A DNA stretch of 48,505 nt from Deltaproteobacteria bacterium (GTDB taxonomy: Bacteria; Desulfobacterota; DSM-4660; Desulfatiglandales; Desulfatiglandaceae): NCBI GenBank assembly GCA_019307945.1, contig JAFDIS010000017.1:1-48505 (forward strand), in the 5' to 3' direction. Of this stretch, positions 11,112-33,272 are shown in pieces (the stretch's first letter is position 1; each line of letters starts with the position of its first letter). Made by a program: the position numbers and the translations under genes. A model generated the notes under the pieces. The model saw nothing but the letters and a program-made list of their open reading frames with translations. It was not told the origin of the DNA and searched no databases.

Positions 11112-11115
11112 CTAA
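11071..11115 (-). repeat. Short inverted-repeat element at the kinase stop codon
   Basis: GTCGAAAA (11071-11078) and TTTTCAAC (11098-11105) form a 7/8 inverted repeat around GCAGCGCTCGC. On the minus strand the outer part (11096-11115) matches 17 of 20 bases of the left end of the element at 29519-29538, both carrying GTTGAAAAAC. The TAG stop of the hybrid kinase (11112-11114) lies inside it, so the repeat abuts or may have trimmed the gene's end. Confidence 0.5.
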
Positions 11116-13808
11116 GGGCCCAATCCCGACCAGACGGCGCGGGCGATGCCCTCCAGGCTGTAAGGCTTTTTCAGGTAGGCCCGGGCGCCCAACCGCCTGG
11201 CCTCCTTGACGCGATCCGTTTCCGAAAATCCGCTGGCAATGATGGCCCTTTGTTCTGGGTTTGACTTGAGGATCCGCCGCAAGGTTTCAAGCCCGTCCAT
11301 GCCCGGTTCCATGATCATGTCAAGGATCACTAGATCCACGGTCCGACTTTCCAAATATGAAAGGGCCTTTTCCCCGCTGGCAACCGCGTTGACTGAATAG
11401 CCTAGTCGCTCGAGCATGGCCGAGGCGATCTCGCGCTGCTCAGGGACGTCGTCCACCACCAGGATGCACTGGCCCCGTCCTCGATATCTGTCTAGAGAAA
11501 ACACCTTTTCCGCTTCCGCGGCCCGGGTCGGGGAAGCTGGAAAGTAGAGGTGGAATGTGGTTCCTTCTCCCGGGATGCTGGTTACGTCGATATAGCCACC
11601 GTGGTCTTCCACCGTGCCCCAGACTACCGTCATTCCCAGGCCCGTGCCGCTTCGGCCCATCTTTTTCTTCGTGTAGAAGGGCTCGAAGATCTTGTCCAGG
11701 TCATCCGGTAAAATGCCTGAGCCGTTGTCTGAAACCGAAAGGACCACGTATTCCCCCGGTTTGACCTCGTCATAGCCGCGGACTGGCCGGTCCAGAGTGC
11801 AGGCTTCCAGGTCTATGTTGATTTCGCCTCCCTGCGGCATGGCCTCGGCACCGTTGGACACCAGGTTCATCAGGGCCTTGGATAGGTGCACGGGGGAACC
11901 CAGGATCGGCGGCAGCCCCGGCCGCGACCGTCGGGATACGCGCACCCCGGGGTGATACCGGAGCAGTTTCTTGAATTCCGGGCTCCTTAGATAGTCGGAG
12001 ACCACGGTTTCGAGGCGCACCTCCTCCTTTACCTGCACACCGCGCCGCGCCAGGGTGAGTAGATCTTGTACTATGGCCGCGGCCTTCTTTCCCGATTGAT
12101 GGATGGTGGTCAAGGGGCCGCGGAGCGGGCTGTCCCCGGGAAGGTCCATAAGCAAAAGCTCGGGATAGCTGAGGATGCCCGAAAGGATGTTGTTCAGGTC
12201 GTGGGCGACCCCCCCCGCCAGGGTTCCCAGGGCCTCCATTTTCTTTGCCCGCTGGAGTCGTTTTTCGATTTCCAGGCGTTCCTTTTCCGCGCGGACCCTT
12301 TCTTCCATCTCTTCCCTGAGGCGCAGATTGGCGTTCCTGAGTTGAGCGGTCTTTTCCAGGACGAGGGCGGAGAGGTTGTCCCGATGTCGTTCCAGTTCCT
12401 CCTCCGCGCGCTTGGCCTCTGTTACGTCACGCATAACGCCCACCAGCACGTCCTGCCCCGTCTCCGGGTCCTGAAAGAGCTTCTTTTTTGTGGAGATGAG
12501 ACGCTCGTCCCCTGCCTTGCGAATGATCGTGTCCTCGCTTGTGTCCTCCTGGCCGCTTTCAAGGAGGACGTCGTTTCGCTTTAGGAAGACTCGCGCTGTA
12601 TCCTCCGGAAAGAGGTCCGCAGCCGACTTGCCCGCCACATGGTCCTTTTCCAGGTGGAAAAAGTTGCAAAACGCATCGTTGATCAGGAGGAATCGATTCT
12701 CCCGGTCCATGACGTAGACCGGGTCCGCCACCGTATTCAGGATGCCGTGGAGGAAGCGATGGGCTTCCTCTTTCTTTCTCCTGGAGTCCAGGAGGCCCTT
12801 CAGGACCGTGTTAAAGGCCCTGGCAAGCTTCCTGAACTCCGCGTAGCGGATGGATTCTTCGTCCAGATAGGAGTGCGTGGGGCTCGTTGAGATCCCCAGA
12901 GCCTGCTCCGCCATGGACGCGAGGGGCTCGCTCATTCTCTTCGCGATCACGAAGGAGATGGCCAGTGTCAGCATGAAGACCACAGCGCAAAGACCGGAAA
13001 GCCTCAGAAGGAGGTTTTTTTTCGCCTCGCCCAGGGAGTGGGAACCGACTGCGTACACAAGGCCGGGAAAGTCCTTGAGAGGGACGAAGTAGGTTCCCCC
13101 GGAATAGAGGGTCTCCGACAGTTCCAGGGTGGGGCCGTAGCCCGCCCTGGGTTTGAAGGGGAGCGGTGAGCGTTTCAGTGTCTTGAGGTCGATCAAGTAG
13201 TTCGGGGTTTGAAGGAGCAGGCTTCCGCCCCAAGCCTCTTGGAATCGATCCCAGAAGTAGCGGTCCCGGGAAAGATCGTAGAGGGTGAAAACCGTGCCCA
13301 GCCGTTCGTCCTTTCTCAAGATGGGGGCCGAAAAGAGTGTGAGGGGCTCGCCGGCTTGGCCTTTACGGAAGACAAAACGCTGAAATCCCCTGCGCCGTGA
13401 AAGATTATGGAGAAACGGCTCCAGTGGGCGGTAGCGGGCAGGAAGTGGCGGGGTGATTTTGGAATCGGTCCGATCCTGGATAAAGAGGTAGGCGCCTTTC
13501 ACGGCAGGTTGAAGGGCTTGGGCCCGCTCCGCCACTTGGTTTTTCACGCCCAGCATGAGATTTACCCGCAGGGCATTGCTCAGGCTCACCTCTTTGGTCC
13601 TGCTCTCCAGGAGATTAAGCCGGTTCCTCAGGGCGAGGTTGATCTCCGCCTGCCTGGCTTTCTGCTCGTTTTCGTACTCCCGGCTCATGGTCCGGCTCAG
13701 GAACCCGTAAAGCGAACCCAGGATCAGGCTCAGGGATACACCCACCAGGCCCAGGAGCACGGCCGTGAGAAACCAGGAAAACTTCTTTTGTGAAGCAAAC
13801 TTCACCAT
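11112..13808 (-). CDS. Hybrid sensor histidine kinase/response regulator
   Basis: An 898-residue membrane kinase. Order: a first membrane segment at about 12-35, an extracytoplasmic region, a second membrane segment near 272-295 followed by a HAMP-like linker, a PAS domain at about 350-465 (DPVYVMDRENRFLLINDAF), a coiled coil, a HisKA domain with H-box AHDLNN (His near 533), a HATPase with LMNLVSNGAEAM, VSDNGSGI and GTGLGMTVVWG, and a C-terminal receiver with VVDD and VILDMIMEPGMDG as phosphoacceptor and KKPYS as the conserved lysine. No DNA-binding output domain is present, so phosphate is passed on or the receiver is regulatory. It lies 49 bases downstream of the ABC_sub_bind protein gene, the probable periplasmic input. 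The start has a weak ribosome-binding site. Confidence 0.9.
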   Translation of the reverse strand: MVKFASQKKFSWFLTAVLLGLVGVSLSLILGSLYGFLSRTMSREYENEQKARQAEINLALRNRLNLLESRTKEVSLSNALRVNLMLGVKNQVAERAQALQPAVKGAYLFIQDRTDSKITPPLPARYRPLEPFLHNLSRRRGFQRFVFRKGQAGEPLTLFSAPILRKDERLGTVFTLYDLSRDRYFWDRFQEAWGGSLLLQTPNYLIDLKTLKRSPLPFKPRAGYGPTLELSETLYSGGTYFVPLKDFPGLVYAVGSHSLGEAKKNLLLRLSGLCAVVFMLTLAISFVIAKRMSEPLASMAEQALGISTSPTHSYLDEESIRYAEFRKLARAFNTVLKGLLDSRRKKEEAHRFLHGILNTVADPVYVMDRENRFLLINDAFCNFFHLEKDHVAGKSAADLFPEDTARVFLKRNDVLLESGQEDTSEDTIIRKAGDERLISTKKKLFQDPETGQDVLVGVMRDVTEAKRAEEELERHRDNLSALVLEKTAQLRNANLRLREEMEERVRAEKERLEIEKRLQRAKKMEALGTLAGGVAHDLNNILSGILSYPELLLMDLPGDSPLRGPLTTIHQSGKKAAAIVQDLLTLARRGVQVKEEVRLETVVSDYLRSPEFKKLLRYHPGVRVSRRSRPGLPPILGSPVHLSKALMNLVSNGAEAMPQGGEINIDLEACTLDRPVRGYDEVKPGEYVVLSVSDNGSGILPDDLDKIFEPFYTKKKMGRSGTGLGMTVVWGTVEDHGGYIDVTSIPGEGTTFHLYFPASPTRAAEAEKVFSLDRYRGRGQCILVVDDVPEQREIASAMLERLGYSVNAVASGEKALSYLESRTVDLVILDMIMEPGMDGLETLRRILKSNPEQRAIIASGFSETDRVKEARRLGARAYLKKPYSLEGIARAVWSGLGP

Positions 13809-13857
13809 GGCTTTTTATCCGGGAGTCCTGATAGGGTTGCAGGACGGGTTCGGGATC

Positions 13858-14916
13858 CTAGCGGATGACTTCATCTGCTGCAAGGAGAATTTCTGTGGGA
13901 ATGGTGATTCCCAGTTGCCGGGCCCTTTTCAAGTTGAAGGTCAGGGCGAAACGGCGGGCTTCCTCGATGGGAATGTCCCCTGGCGGGCGGCCCCGCAGGA
14001 TGTTGACGACCATATCACCCGCTTGTCTTCCCATGGCGTGGAAATCCACGGCGGCGCCGCCGAAAAGACCCAGCCTCGTAAAGGCATAGTTTACGGCGAT
14101 TTCAGGCTTTCTGGACACCCGGGTGGTCCAGGAGAAAATCTCGGGCGCCGTGTATGTCCTGCCGTTTCGGTCCCTCAAGAGAAGGGCCACGGGGTAGATG
14201 GCCCCGATACGGCGGTCTTGATTCGCTCCGCGAATCAAATCCTGGTATTTCTCCCATGATGATGCGTTTCTGAGTTCCCAGTCCACCGGGACCTCTTCAT
14301 TATTGAGTTCCTCGAAGACCTGTCGTTTTATCGCCAGGCCCGTGGGGGATGGGTCGGTCAGGAATAATACTTTCTTGGTCCCGGGAAACATCCTCGCATG
14401 CACCCTGAGGGCGTCGGCCACATGAAGCTTTTCGTACACGCCGGTAATATTGTGAGAAGGCCTAGACCGTGTTTCCATGAAGGGAGTTTGTCGGTCGTAA
14501 TCCTCGGGTCGGCCGTTGAGGCCGCTGAAGATGATGGACACGGATCGGTCCACGAGCTTCAAGGCCACATGTTTGAAGGCGTTGTCGTCCAGGGTCACCA
14601 GGATGCGGGGTCGGTACTCGTCGATTTGTCGGAGGGCCAGGGATGCCTGACGCCTGATGAGTTGCGGTGTGTTGTTCTTGCGCTTCGTGTCCATGTAGAA
14701 TACCCGCAGATCCAGGTTTCTGTCAGGGACAAATCCTGCCTCCTTCAGGGAGGTCAGCAGGCCGTCGTGCTGGGGTTGCCCGCACACGTGGCCCTTTTCG
14801 TAACTATGAACAACGAAGATCTTCTGAAGGCGCTCGCCGGCCCGGGCCCCCTGAGTAAGTGTCAGGGTCAAGAGCAGAAGCGCAACCAGCGCCGGACCTC
14901 TAGCGGGATGTCTCAT
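13858..14916 (-). CDS. Periplasmic ABC_sub_bind (PF04392-like) substrate-binding protein
   Basis: An exported binding protein of 352 residues with a signal peptide ending GARA-GE near residue 27. The mature part opens KIFVVHSYEKGHVCGQ and shows the two-lobed pattern of the ABC_sub_bind family (TLDDNAFKH, SIIFSGLNGRP, KVLFLTDPSP, GLFGGAAVDFHAMGRQAGD). No permease or ATPase gene accompanies it; instead the hybrid kinase gene follows 49 bases downstream. It therefore probably acts as a sensor receptor. The degenerate kinase at 29757-31792 carries a homologous domain (shared YMDTKR and DDNAF motifs). AAGGAAGG lies about eight bases before the ATG. The ligand is unknown. Confidence 0.83.
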   Translation of the reverse strand: MRHPARGPALVALLLLTLTLTQGARAGERLQKIFVVHSYEKGHVCGQPQHDGLLTSLKEAGFVPDRNLDLRVFYMDTKRKNNTPQLIRRQASLALRQIDEYRPRILVTLDDNAFKHVALKLVDRSVSIIFSGLNGRPEDYDRQTPFMETRSRPSHNITGVYEKLHVADALRVHARMFPGTKKVLFLTDPSPTGLAIKRQVFEELNNEEVPVDWELRNASSWEKYQDLIRGANQDRRIGAIYPVALLLRDRNGRTYTAPEIFSWTTRVSRKPEIAVNYAFTRLGLFGGAAVDFHAMGRQAGDMVVNILRGRPPGDIPIEEARRFALTFNLKRARQLGITIPTEILLAADEVIR

Positions 14917-29327: not shown

Positions 29328-29756
29328 AGGAAGCACCCAGGGGGGCAACTCAGACTCCCCACGCGTCCCCCACCCGCGCGTCGGCTGCGGACCCCTATCC
29401 GCGATCTCCGGCATCACTTGAACTCCTCCACTCCCCGATGAGGAGTCCTCGCTCATATTTCTCCCATGAGATCCTGAGTTTCCGCTTGAGCAAGGGAAGA
29501 ATCCTGCCGAAGTGTTTTTTAACAGGCTGTTGAAAAACTACTGCGCTTGTCGATGCTGCGTCCGAATTCGGACAAAAACACTCGTTGTGCTGTTAGGTAA
29601 ACAGCGTTCCTCGCCTCATCTGCCTTGTCTGCTCTTCACTCGCTGGGTTTTTCAACAAGCTGTCAGGGTCTGGCCTGTTCGTTCATTCGCCGATAAGATC
29701 AGGGGGGGCGAGGGGGGCGGCGGCAGGCGGACGGGGTCAACACAGAGAGACGGAAC
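29328..29756. other. Intergenic region holding a repeat element
   Basis: A 429-base gap before the degenerate kinase. Its core (29521-29664) is an inverted-repeat element described separately. The rest shows only low-complexity G-rich sequence (29700-29720) and no gene. Confidence 0.5.
29521..29664. repeat. MITE/REP-like element with terminal inverted repeats
   Basis: AACAGGCTGTTGAAAAAC (29521-29538) and GTTTTTCAACAAGCTGTC (29647-29664) are inverted copies with three mismatches in about 18 bases. The 144-base unit includes a 14-base palindrome GTCCGAATTCGGAC (29560-29573). Similar ends occur at 11096-11115. Such GTTGAAAAAC-ended repeats recur, from memory, in related genomes. No transposase frame is inside, so it would be non-autonomous. 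Confidence 0.62.
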
Positions 29757-31792
29757 ATGATGCATCTCAAAAACCACACCGTGCCCGGGGCTTCAATCCT
29801 CATGTTCCTCCTTCATGCCTTGTTGCTCTCTTCTCCATGCATGGCAGACCCCGATATCTTGATGATCAACTCCTACCACAAGGGCTACCCCTGGACCGAT
29901 GATCTGGTCAAGACCACGGTCGGTTTCATGAAAACGCGATTCAGTGACTGCGAGATCCATGTTGAATACATGGATACTAAGCGAATAAAGACCCCCCGAT
30001 ACTTGAGGCTTTTTCAAAAAATAATAGAGGAAAAATACCACGGGCATAAACCGGACATCGTGATCGTTTCGGATGACAATGCATTTCGGTTCATCCTTAC
30101 ATGTCACAAGAGGCTGTTTCCCGGCACACCCGTCTTGTTCCTGGGTGTAAACCACTTTGACCCGGCCATGATAGACGGTCACCCTGAAGTGACGGGAATC
30201 GTACAAAACGTGTATATTGCAGATACCGTCCGGATTGCGTTGAAGCTGACCCCCGGATTCAGGCGAGTGGCCGTCATCTACGATGACACGCTAACGGGAA
30301 GGGGTTACCGTGAGCAGGTGTTTGAAGCCAGGAAAGGTTTCGAGGGTTTGGAGTTCACGCTCCTGGACGGGGCTCAGTTGACCACGGAAGAAATGCTTGA
30401 CCGGGTCGAGGCATTGCCTTCGGACAGCATCTCGCTTCTCTGTATCTGGGTGCGTGACAAGACCGGCATTTATGTCCCCTGGGATAAGACCTACCCGGAA
30501 CTGACGAGGAGATCACCCGTTCCTGTGTACGGTGTTCTAGACCGCATGCTTGATTTCGGGGTGGTGGGAGGAATGGTGCAGTCCGCACACTACCATGCCC
30601 TTGAAGCTGCCGGAATTGCGGAAAAGATCCTGAAGGGTGTGTCTCCCGCCGATATACCCGTTCATTTGAAAAGCCGAAATGTGCCCATGTTCGACTATAA
30701 GGCCATGGAACGGTGGAACATAGATGAGAAAAGGCTTCCCGGGCCGGATCTTGGAAGGTTGTGGGAGATAGAAAAGGCGGCCAAGAAGGCAGGTGAGTTG
30801 ACCCGGCAGCTCTTGACTTTCAGCCGAAGGGTGGAAAGCCGGCTCAGACCGGTGGATCTCAATCGGGAAGTGCTCGAAGTGCAAAAGCTTCTAGAGAGGA
30901 CCATACCTAAGATGATCGACATAGAGCTCCACCTCCAGGAAGGGCTCAAGGTCATCAACGCGGACCCGGCGCAGATGGAACAAGTCATGCTGAACCTGGC
31001 CGTGAACGCCAGAGACGCCATGCCGGAGGGCGGCAAGCTGGTGATTGAAACGGAAAACGTCGTCCTCGATGAGGCGTACTGCAAGACCCACTTGGGCGCG
31101 GTAAAGGGTGAATACGTACTCCTGTGCCTGTCGGATACCGGCCATGGCATGGACAAGGAGACCCTGGCGCATATTTTCGAGCCTTTTTACACCACCAAGG
31201 AGACCGGTAAGGGCACCGGTCTGGGCCTTGCGATGGTTTACGGGATCGTGAAGAGCCACGGGGGCTACATCATGTGTTACAGTGAGCCCGGCGAGGGGAC
31301 CACCTTCAAGATCTATTTTCCGGCCGTCGAATCGCAGGGTGTGGCCCACCGACCACGCCGCGAAGAGGAAACGGCGTTTCCGGGCGGCAACGAGACCATC
31401 CTGCTGGTGGATGATGAAGACACCTTGCGGGACCTTGGCAAGGAGATGCTCGAGAGATTCGGCTACACCGTGCTCCAGGCCGAAAACGGAGAGAGCGCCT
31501 TGAGAGTATACGAGAGGAACCAAAGGGAGATTTCCCTGGTGATCCTGGACCTCATCATGCCCGGGATGGGGGGCAGGAAGTGCCTTGAAGAGCTGATGAG
31601 GATAAATCCTCAGGTAAACGTGGTGGTCGCCAGCGGTTATTCGGCAAATAGAATAGCCAAGGTCGAAAAGCAACGGAAGCGGGTGCCCGGGGGTTCATCG
31701 CAAAGCCCTACGACGTGGGCCGGATGCTCAGGTCCCTCCGGGAGGCCCTGGATACGGGGGGTGATTTCCGGGGGGACTTCCTCGAAGAATGA
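29757..31792 (+). pseudogene. Degenerate sensor kinase: ABC_sub_bind domain fused to kinase and receiver, with internal loss and frameshift
   Basis: After a signal peptide (about 1-31) residues 32-320 form an ABC_sub_bind-type receptor (INSYHKGYPW, EYMDTKRIKTPRY, IVSDDNAFR) homologous to the protein at 13858-14916. It then passes at about 30735-30760 straight into the second HisKA helix (KAAKKAGELTRQLLTFSRR). The expected membrane segment and the H-box histidine are missing. The HATPase (VMLNLAVNARDAM, GTGLGLAMVYG) and a receiver (LLVDDED, VILDLIMPGM) follow. At about 31655-31680 the frame is lost after GYSAN; the receiver end (EAGARGFIAKPYDVGRML) continues in the -1 frame to a TGA at 31790-31792. 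The original frame stays open to 32591 only because it runs antisense through dctM. Probably a non-functional kinase. Confidence 0.8.
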
Positions 31793-31958
31793 GGAGCGGG
31801 GGGGCGGGAAGGGTGTTGACGGGGCAGGGCACGGTAGGGGCTCGATGGAAAACCAGGAAAGGGCGTCCACGGGAAGTCTGCAATGGGCCCGCGCGCCCGC
31901 CTTGCAAAGCTTCTTCCATGAACGGCCCTATCCCTCTTTCGTTTTTCCTCGCCATCCC

Positions 31959-33272
31959 TCAACCGAAAATGACATTCGGCAGCCAGATGGCGATCTGGGG
32001 GAAAATCATGACCAGGGCCAGCCCCGTGCCCTCTACAATGGTGAAAGGAACGACGGATCGGTAGATGTCTGCCATGCTGATGGAGGGCGGAACAATTCCT
32101 TTCATATAAAAGAGATTGAAGCCGAAAGGCGGCGTCATATAACCGATTTCCATGTTGATGGTAAAGAGGATGCCGAACCAGACCGGGTCAAAGCCGTAAG
32201 CCTTTACCACGGGGAGGAAAATGGGCACGCAGATCATCATGATACCCGCCGGGTCCAGGACCATGGCCAGGAGAAAGATGACGATCTGGATAAAGATGAT
32301 GGTCCCCCAGGGTCCGCCGGGGATGTATTTCATGATGTCTTCGATCAAATGGGATGCTCCCATGCCGTGATACGCGGCACTGAAGCAATAGGCCCCGAAA
32401 AGAATCCACATGATCATGCCCGTGAGGCGGAAGGTTCGCATGGCCGCTTCCACGATGAGGCTCCAACTCATCTGCCGGTAGACAAAAGCGGATATGAGCG
32501 CTCCCAGGACGCCCATTCCGGCCGCTTCGGTTGGGGTGGCGATTCCGCCTATGATGGAACCCAGGACCATGAGCACGATGATGATGGGTAGGATTACGGC
32601 CTTGAGCGTTTTGATCTTTCTGGGCCAATCGCCTCGCTCCTCTTTCGGGAGCGGTGGGCCGAGATGGGGCTGGATCAGGCAACGAATCGCGATGTAGCTC
32701 GCGACAAGAACAAGGAGCAGCAGGCCGGGAAAGACGCCTCCCGCGAAAAGTTTGCCCACGGATTCGCCTGAAATGAGGGCATAGAGAATCATGATGACAC
32801 TGGGGGGGATGAGGATGCCCCAGCCTCCTCCGGAGTTGATGCAGCCCACGGCGATGAGCTTGTCGTAATCGCGTTTCAGCATGGAAGGCAGTGCAATGGT
32901 GCCCATACTCACCACCGCCGCCCCCGAGATGCCGCACATGGCCGAAAAGATCGCGCAGATCACCACCGTACCGATGGCAAGGCCTCCGGGGACAGGCCCG
33001 AACCACAGATACATCATCTCATAGAGATCGTTGGCCGTTCCAGACCGTTCCAAGATCATGGCCATGAAGATAAAGAGGGGAATCGCCACGAGGGTAAACT
33101 TGTTCATGGCTCCCCAGGACTGGGCGGCGACCATGTAGAATGCTTCCGGACCCCAGGTAAAGTAGAGGAATAGGACCGAGACCCCTCCGAGGACAAAGGC
33201 AAGAGGCAGGCCAAGCAACAGGAATACCAGGAGGGAAAAGAAGAAGAGGAATGTCAACCATTCGATACTCAT
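31959..33272 (-). CDS. dctM: TRAP transporter large permease (DctM)
   Basis: Inner-membrane transport subunit of a sodium- or proton-driven TRAP carboxylate importer, 437 residues with about 12 hydrophobic segments. Family blocks are LLLGLPLAFVLGGVSVLFL near the start, SAMCGISGAAVVSMGTIALP near residue 115 and INSGGGWGILIPPS near 150. AAGGAAACGCT precedes the ATG, which overlaps the dctQ stop by four bases (ATGA). It is the last gene of the dehydrogenase-dctP-dctQ-dctM group. No clear terminator was seen after it. Confidence 0.94.
   Translation of the reverse strand: MSIEWLTFLFFFSLLVFLLLGLPLAFVLGGVSVLFLYFTWGPEAFYMVAAQSWGAMNKFTLVAIPLFIFMAMILERSGTANDLYEMMYLWFGPVPGGLAIGTVVICAIFSAMCGISGAAVVSMGTIALPSMLKRDYDKLIAVGCINSGGGWGILIPPSVIMILYALISGESVGKLFAGGVFPGLLLLVLVASYIAIRCLIQPHLGPPLPKEERGDWPRKIKTLKAVILPIIIVLMVLGSIIGGIATPTEAAGMGVLGALISAFVYRQMSWSLIVEAAMRTFRLTGMIMWILFGAYCFSAAYHGMGASHLIEDIMKYIPGGPWGTIIFIQIVIFLLAMVLDPAGIMMICVPIFLPVVKAYGFDPVWFGILFTINMEIGYMTPPFGFNLFYMKGIVPPSISMADIYRSVVPFTIVEGTGLALVMIFPQIAIWLPNVIFG

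Follow-up and report, generated by a model that had tools for sequence, protein, structure and literature searches.

The closest known systems to the locus described here are hybrid histidine kinases with an ABC_sub_bind (PF04392) receptor, such as the one encoded by G021:C143, and histidine-less or pseudo-histidine kinases such as DivL. In the latter the DHp helix pair is complete and conservation extends across species; the absence of the phospho-accepting histidine is what they have in common with our locus. A literature search on the combination of an ABC_sub_bind receptor with a kinase found nothing.

We analyzed a stretch of 48,505 nucleotides from a Desulfatiglandaceae genome (GCA_019307945.1, contig JAFDIS010000017.1), referred to as the window, in which an earlier note had read positions 29757-31792 as a decaying receptor-kinase gene. 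Compared with a homologue that is intact, the gene carries disabling lesions, which makes decay the best supported reading. The locus very probably represents a membrane hybrid histidine kinase gene that recently became a pseudogene, through an internal deletion and a separate 5-bp tandem duplication.

Domain content of the locus

The locus (29757-31792, plus strand) begins an open frame of 944 amino acids that extends to 32591. Pfam searches of this frame returned a weak ABC_sub_bind match (PF04392, residues 124-317, 26.1 bits against a cut-off of 25.9), a HATPase_c match (residues 403-523, E = 1.6e-22), and a truncated Response_reg match (residues 548-633, profile positions 1-84 of 111). Neither PAS nor HisKA was matched in the 944-residue frame. 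There is no H-box in the window gene, and its only hydrophobic segment is the signal peptide (residues 8-26), with no membrane segment between receptor and kinase. Pfam and hydrophobicity thus agree with the earlier claim that no transmembrane segment, PAS domain, or H-box lies between the two halves. Since homologues with an intact middle exist, what is absent here has truly been lost in comparison with kin and is not missing by chance.

The signal peptide and the ABC_sub_bind-type periplasmic receptor domain (residues 1-328) occupy 29757-30740, as supported by Pfam and by the alignment to G021:C143. They are followed at 30744-31325 by the second HisKA helix and HATPase_c (residues 330-523), whose motifs are intact. 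The N-terminal part of the receiver (31398-31646, from residue 548) is in the original frame and contains VDDED, LDLIMPG, and VASGYS. Past about 31,676 the long frame is no longer receiver sequence. The run at 31677-32591 is spurious and out of frame, and from 31,959 it is antisense to dctM, which lies on the minus strand at 31959-33272 (PF06808 DctM, E = 1e-86). The suspicion that the long frame to 32591 is an artefact was therefore well founded.

Internal deletion relative to an intact homologue

The nearest full-length homologue, G021:C143 (L038), comes from another genus of the same family and is an uninterrupted frame of 1,025 codons, 73% identical to the window gene over receptor residues 1-328 and 76% identical over kinase residues 330-631. 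It begins with a signal peptide and the receptor, continues with a transmembrane helix and a pair of PAS domains, and ends in HisKA, where the motif reads SHDFNN, HATPase_c, and a receiver that is complete. Five more homologues (G041, G018, G007, G036, and G028) retain the transmembrane segment, PAS, and HDFNN. The earlier note had proposed an alignment with intact ABC_sub_bind-kinase fusions. Aligned with L038, the DNA breaks at window 30739-30740 (L038 5876-5877) and restarts at 30744 (L038 6919), placing the join of receptor to kinase, previously put near 30,740, at 30740/30744 with three unaligned bases in between. The homologue has 1,041 bp between the breakpoints and the window 3 bp (30741-30743), a net loss of 1,038 bp in frame. 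From DNA and protein alignment and the domains of L038, the junction (30738-30746, plus strand) marks the loss of 346 codons, which comprise the transmembrane helix, both PAS domains, and the first HisKA helix, which bears the histidine (SHDFNN).

A junction of this kind could also come from the joining of a stand-alone receptor gene to a fragment of a kinase. Lone receptor genes next to separate kinases do exist, one such pair in this window. However, each half of the window gene is sister to one end of the single G021 gene, in the same order and frame, and we give such a fusion of unrelated genes practically no credence. Separate trees of the two halves paired the window with the G021 gene (98/91 for the kinase and 92/88 for the receptor), indicating one gene with an internal deletion rather than a new fusion. 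The flanks are not conserved in gene order between the window and G021, which leaves sequence and trees as the sole basis for orthology.

The hexamer CCTGAC is present at both breakpoints of the homologue. Recombination between short direct repeats was considered as the route, but a clean deletion between repeats would leave a junction two codons shorter than that of the window; a direct-repeat deletion at CCTGAC is thus suggestive only.

Receiver frameshift

As the earlier note had stated, the conserved end of the receiver is found in the -1 frame, reading KATEAGARGFIAKPYDVGRML...LEE. This C-terminal part (GARGFIAKPYD...) spans 31657-31792 on the plus strand up to a TGA stop at 31790-31792, and is recovered both by translation and by tblastx (31652-31753 against L038 7822-7923). 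The conserved receiver lysine is consequently not in frame, its KPYD motif lying in the -1 frame. The break had been placed at about 31,655-31,680; the frameshift itself stands, and its position is refined to a tandem AATAG-AATAG at 31647-31656.

The linker from SGYS to the conserved F-I-x-K-P-Y is 15 residues long in 45 of 46 homologous receivers. The window linker has a net five bases too many, exactly where AATAG is doubled (AATAGAATAG, plus strand), and a single copy would restore the 15-residue linker. No other 5-bp tandem repeat occurs in 31601-31720. Such repeats occur at 1.5 per kb in the window, giving a chance coincidence of ~7% in a stretch of ~45 bases, and the agreement in length further strengthens the link between repeat and frameshift. 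The simplest cause is a tandem duplication. Programmed -1 frameshifting was also considered and rejected, as inspection revealed no convincing slippery site and the homologues need none.

Search for the same layout in other genomes

The fused histidine-less layout was not seen in any of the 85 genomes of the order or in about 395 genomes sampled from the phylum. With a junction-spanning query, every match in the 85 order genomes stopped at the junction or within a few residues of it. The phylum matches reaching past the junction that were examined all had a transmembrane segment, and those whose sequences were inspected in full were other kinase types. No same-genus genome was among the relatives found.

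Several candidate sharers of the layout were inspected and discarded. The matches in L066 (query 168-635) and L045 (query 275-631), contiguous over the junction, are ordinary PAS kinases with AHDFNN and a chance alignment to the receptor. G312:C33 (L113) and G369:C3 (L115) have a transmembrane segment and read as other kinase types with histidine motifs of their own (THELNQPL and FHDDLAQRL). G354:C27 has a transmembrane segment and SHEIR, and G127:C5 also has a transmembrane segment.

The earlier note had reasoned that orthologues in several species, histidine-less in the same way but with the receiver in one frame, would point to a functional protein; these were looked for and not found. A histidine-less regulator, its truncated product retained either as a receptor that is exported or as an adaptor made of ATPase and receiver, would be in keeping with the in-frame deletion, the intact receptor and HATPase motifs, and the lack of a significant rate acceleration. 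The receiver is frameshifted, though, no kin with the layout were found, the signal peptide has no stop-transfer segment to follow it, and the C-terminal extension is junk, partly antisense to dctM, all of which make a functional regulator highly improbable. Even less credible is a truncated gene that is still expressed, whose exported receptor, fused to a histidine-less ATPase, would act as a soluble decoy, a ligand sink, or an adaptor serving the genome's many related kinases.

State of the remaining sequence

Apart from the two lesions, the gene is in good condition. Of the conserved columns, all 52 in the kinase are unchanged and a single one of 25 in the receptor differs (V to L), and no stop codon occurs within the remaining 984 + 906 bases. 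Relative-rate counts against the G021 gene were close to even, at 19:20 for the receptor; for the kinase, three outgroups gave 22:21, 24:20, and 27:23 and another gave 26:18. None of these is significant. Since dS is near saturation, dN/dS tells little on the window branch alone. Remains with neither excess damage nor a rate excess imply either that the decay is recent or that the lesions are assembly errors. The unchanged columns and near-even rates may thus be read as compatible with recent loss; the preserved remains, together with a deletion that is in frame (chance 1 in 3), would agree as well with an error in the sequence or with function that has been retained.

The organism might therefore carry the full gene, the draft having dropped the internal segment and misplaced five bases. 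The assembly is a fragmented draft of 185 contigs, and nearly all other conserved residues are intact, as a living gene would be expected to show. On the other hand, two independent errors would be needed in one gene, and the 6 bp shared by the homologue breakpoints are too short to mislead an assembler. Moreover, the missing segment is nowhere else in this genome, which is 98.5% complete; the top match is a 57% paralogue inside its own gene. To our knowledge, a 5-bp tandem duplication is also atypical as a short-read error. Two independent errors with the missing piece untraced are less likely than two real mutations, and we regard an artefact of assembly or sequencing as unlikely.

Genome context

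The genome contains 97 matches to the window protein, mostly to its kinase or receiver parts. Several other kinase matches have internal stop codons, including G000:C80:37253-38146 and G000:C11:712-1593, and may be further broken kinase genes or neighbouring frames. At 11112-14916 on the minus strand of the window, a lone ABC_sub_bind receptor gene (13858-14916) lies immediately upstream of a gene for a PAS-HisKA-HATPase-receiver kinase (11112-13808); the pair presents the fused receptor-kinase layout as two separate genes.

Just upstream of the gene at 29757, at positions 29519-29668, is a dispersed repeat of ~150 bp that ends in 17-nt imperfect terminal inverted repeats (ACAGGCTGTTGAAAAAC / GTTTTTCAACAAGCTGT). 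The genome has 23 full or partial copies of this MITE- or REP-like element, about 70-90% alike.

Proposed history and comparison with known systems

We propose an ancestor in which an ABC_sub_bind receptor, preceded by a signal peptide, was joined through a transmembrane helix and a pair of PAS domains to HisKA, HATPase, and a receiver. The gene would have lost about 1,038 bp from its interior, in frame, and with them the membrane segment, the PAS domains, and the histidine that accepts the phosphate; in a separate event, a tandem duplication of 5 bp would have shifted the last part of the receiver into another frame. With its signal peptide kept and its stop-transfer helix gone, the product would be exported whole, carrying its ATPase away from ATP. 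Without HisKA helix 1 it would form no four-helix dimer and have no phospho-acceptor, and a receiver deprived of the conserved lysine and last helix would support no phosphorelay. Taken together, export away from ATP, the missing histidine, and the incomplete receiver suggest that any product would be inactive.

A pseudogene with no likely function, left by gene decay of an ordinary kind, is accordingly the best reading, and the most fitting annotation for the locus is pseudogene of an ABC_sub_bind-PAS hybrid histidine kinase. Beyond annotation the significance is small. Automatic calling would give a 944-residue "hybrid kinase" that cannot be a kinase, its last 300 residues being an out-of-frame, partly antisense artefact. 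The locus also provides a clean example of loss within a large paralogous sensor family.

Unlike kinases of the DivL type, the window gene is without the whole first helix, its receiver is broken, and no kin sharing its layout were found. In comparison with kinases of the G021:C143 type, the window copy lacks the transmembrane helix, both PAS domains, and the histidine of HisKA helix 1, and its receiver is frameshifted, whereas the receptor, HATPase, and receiver are shared with them in the same order at 73-76% identity.
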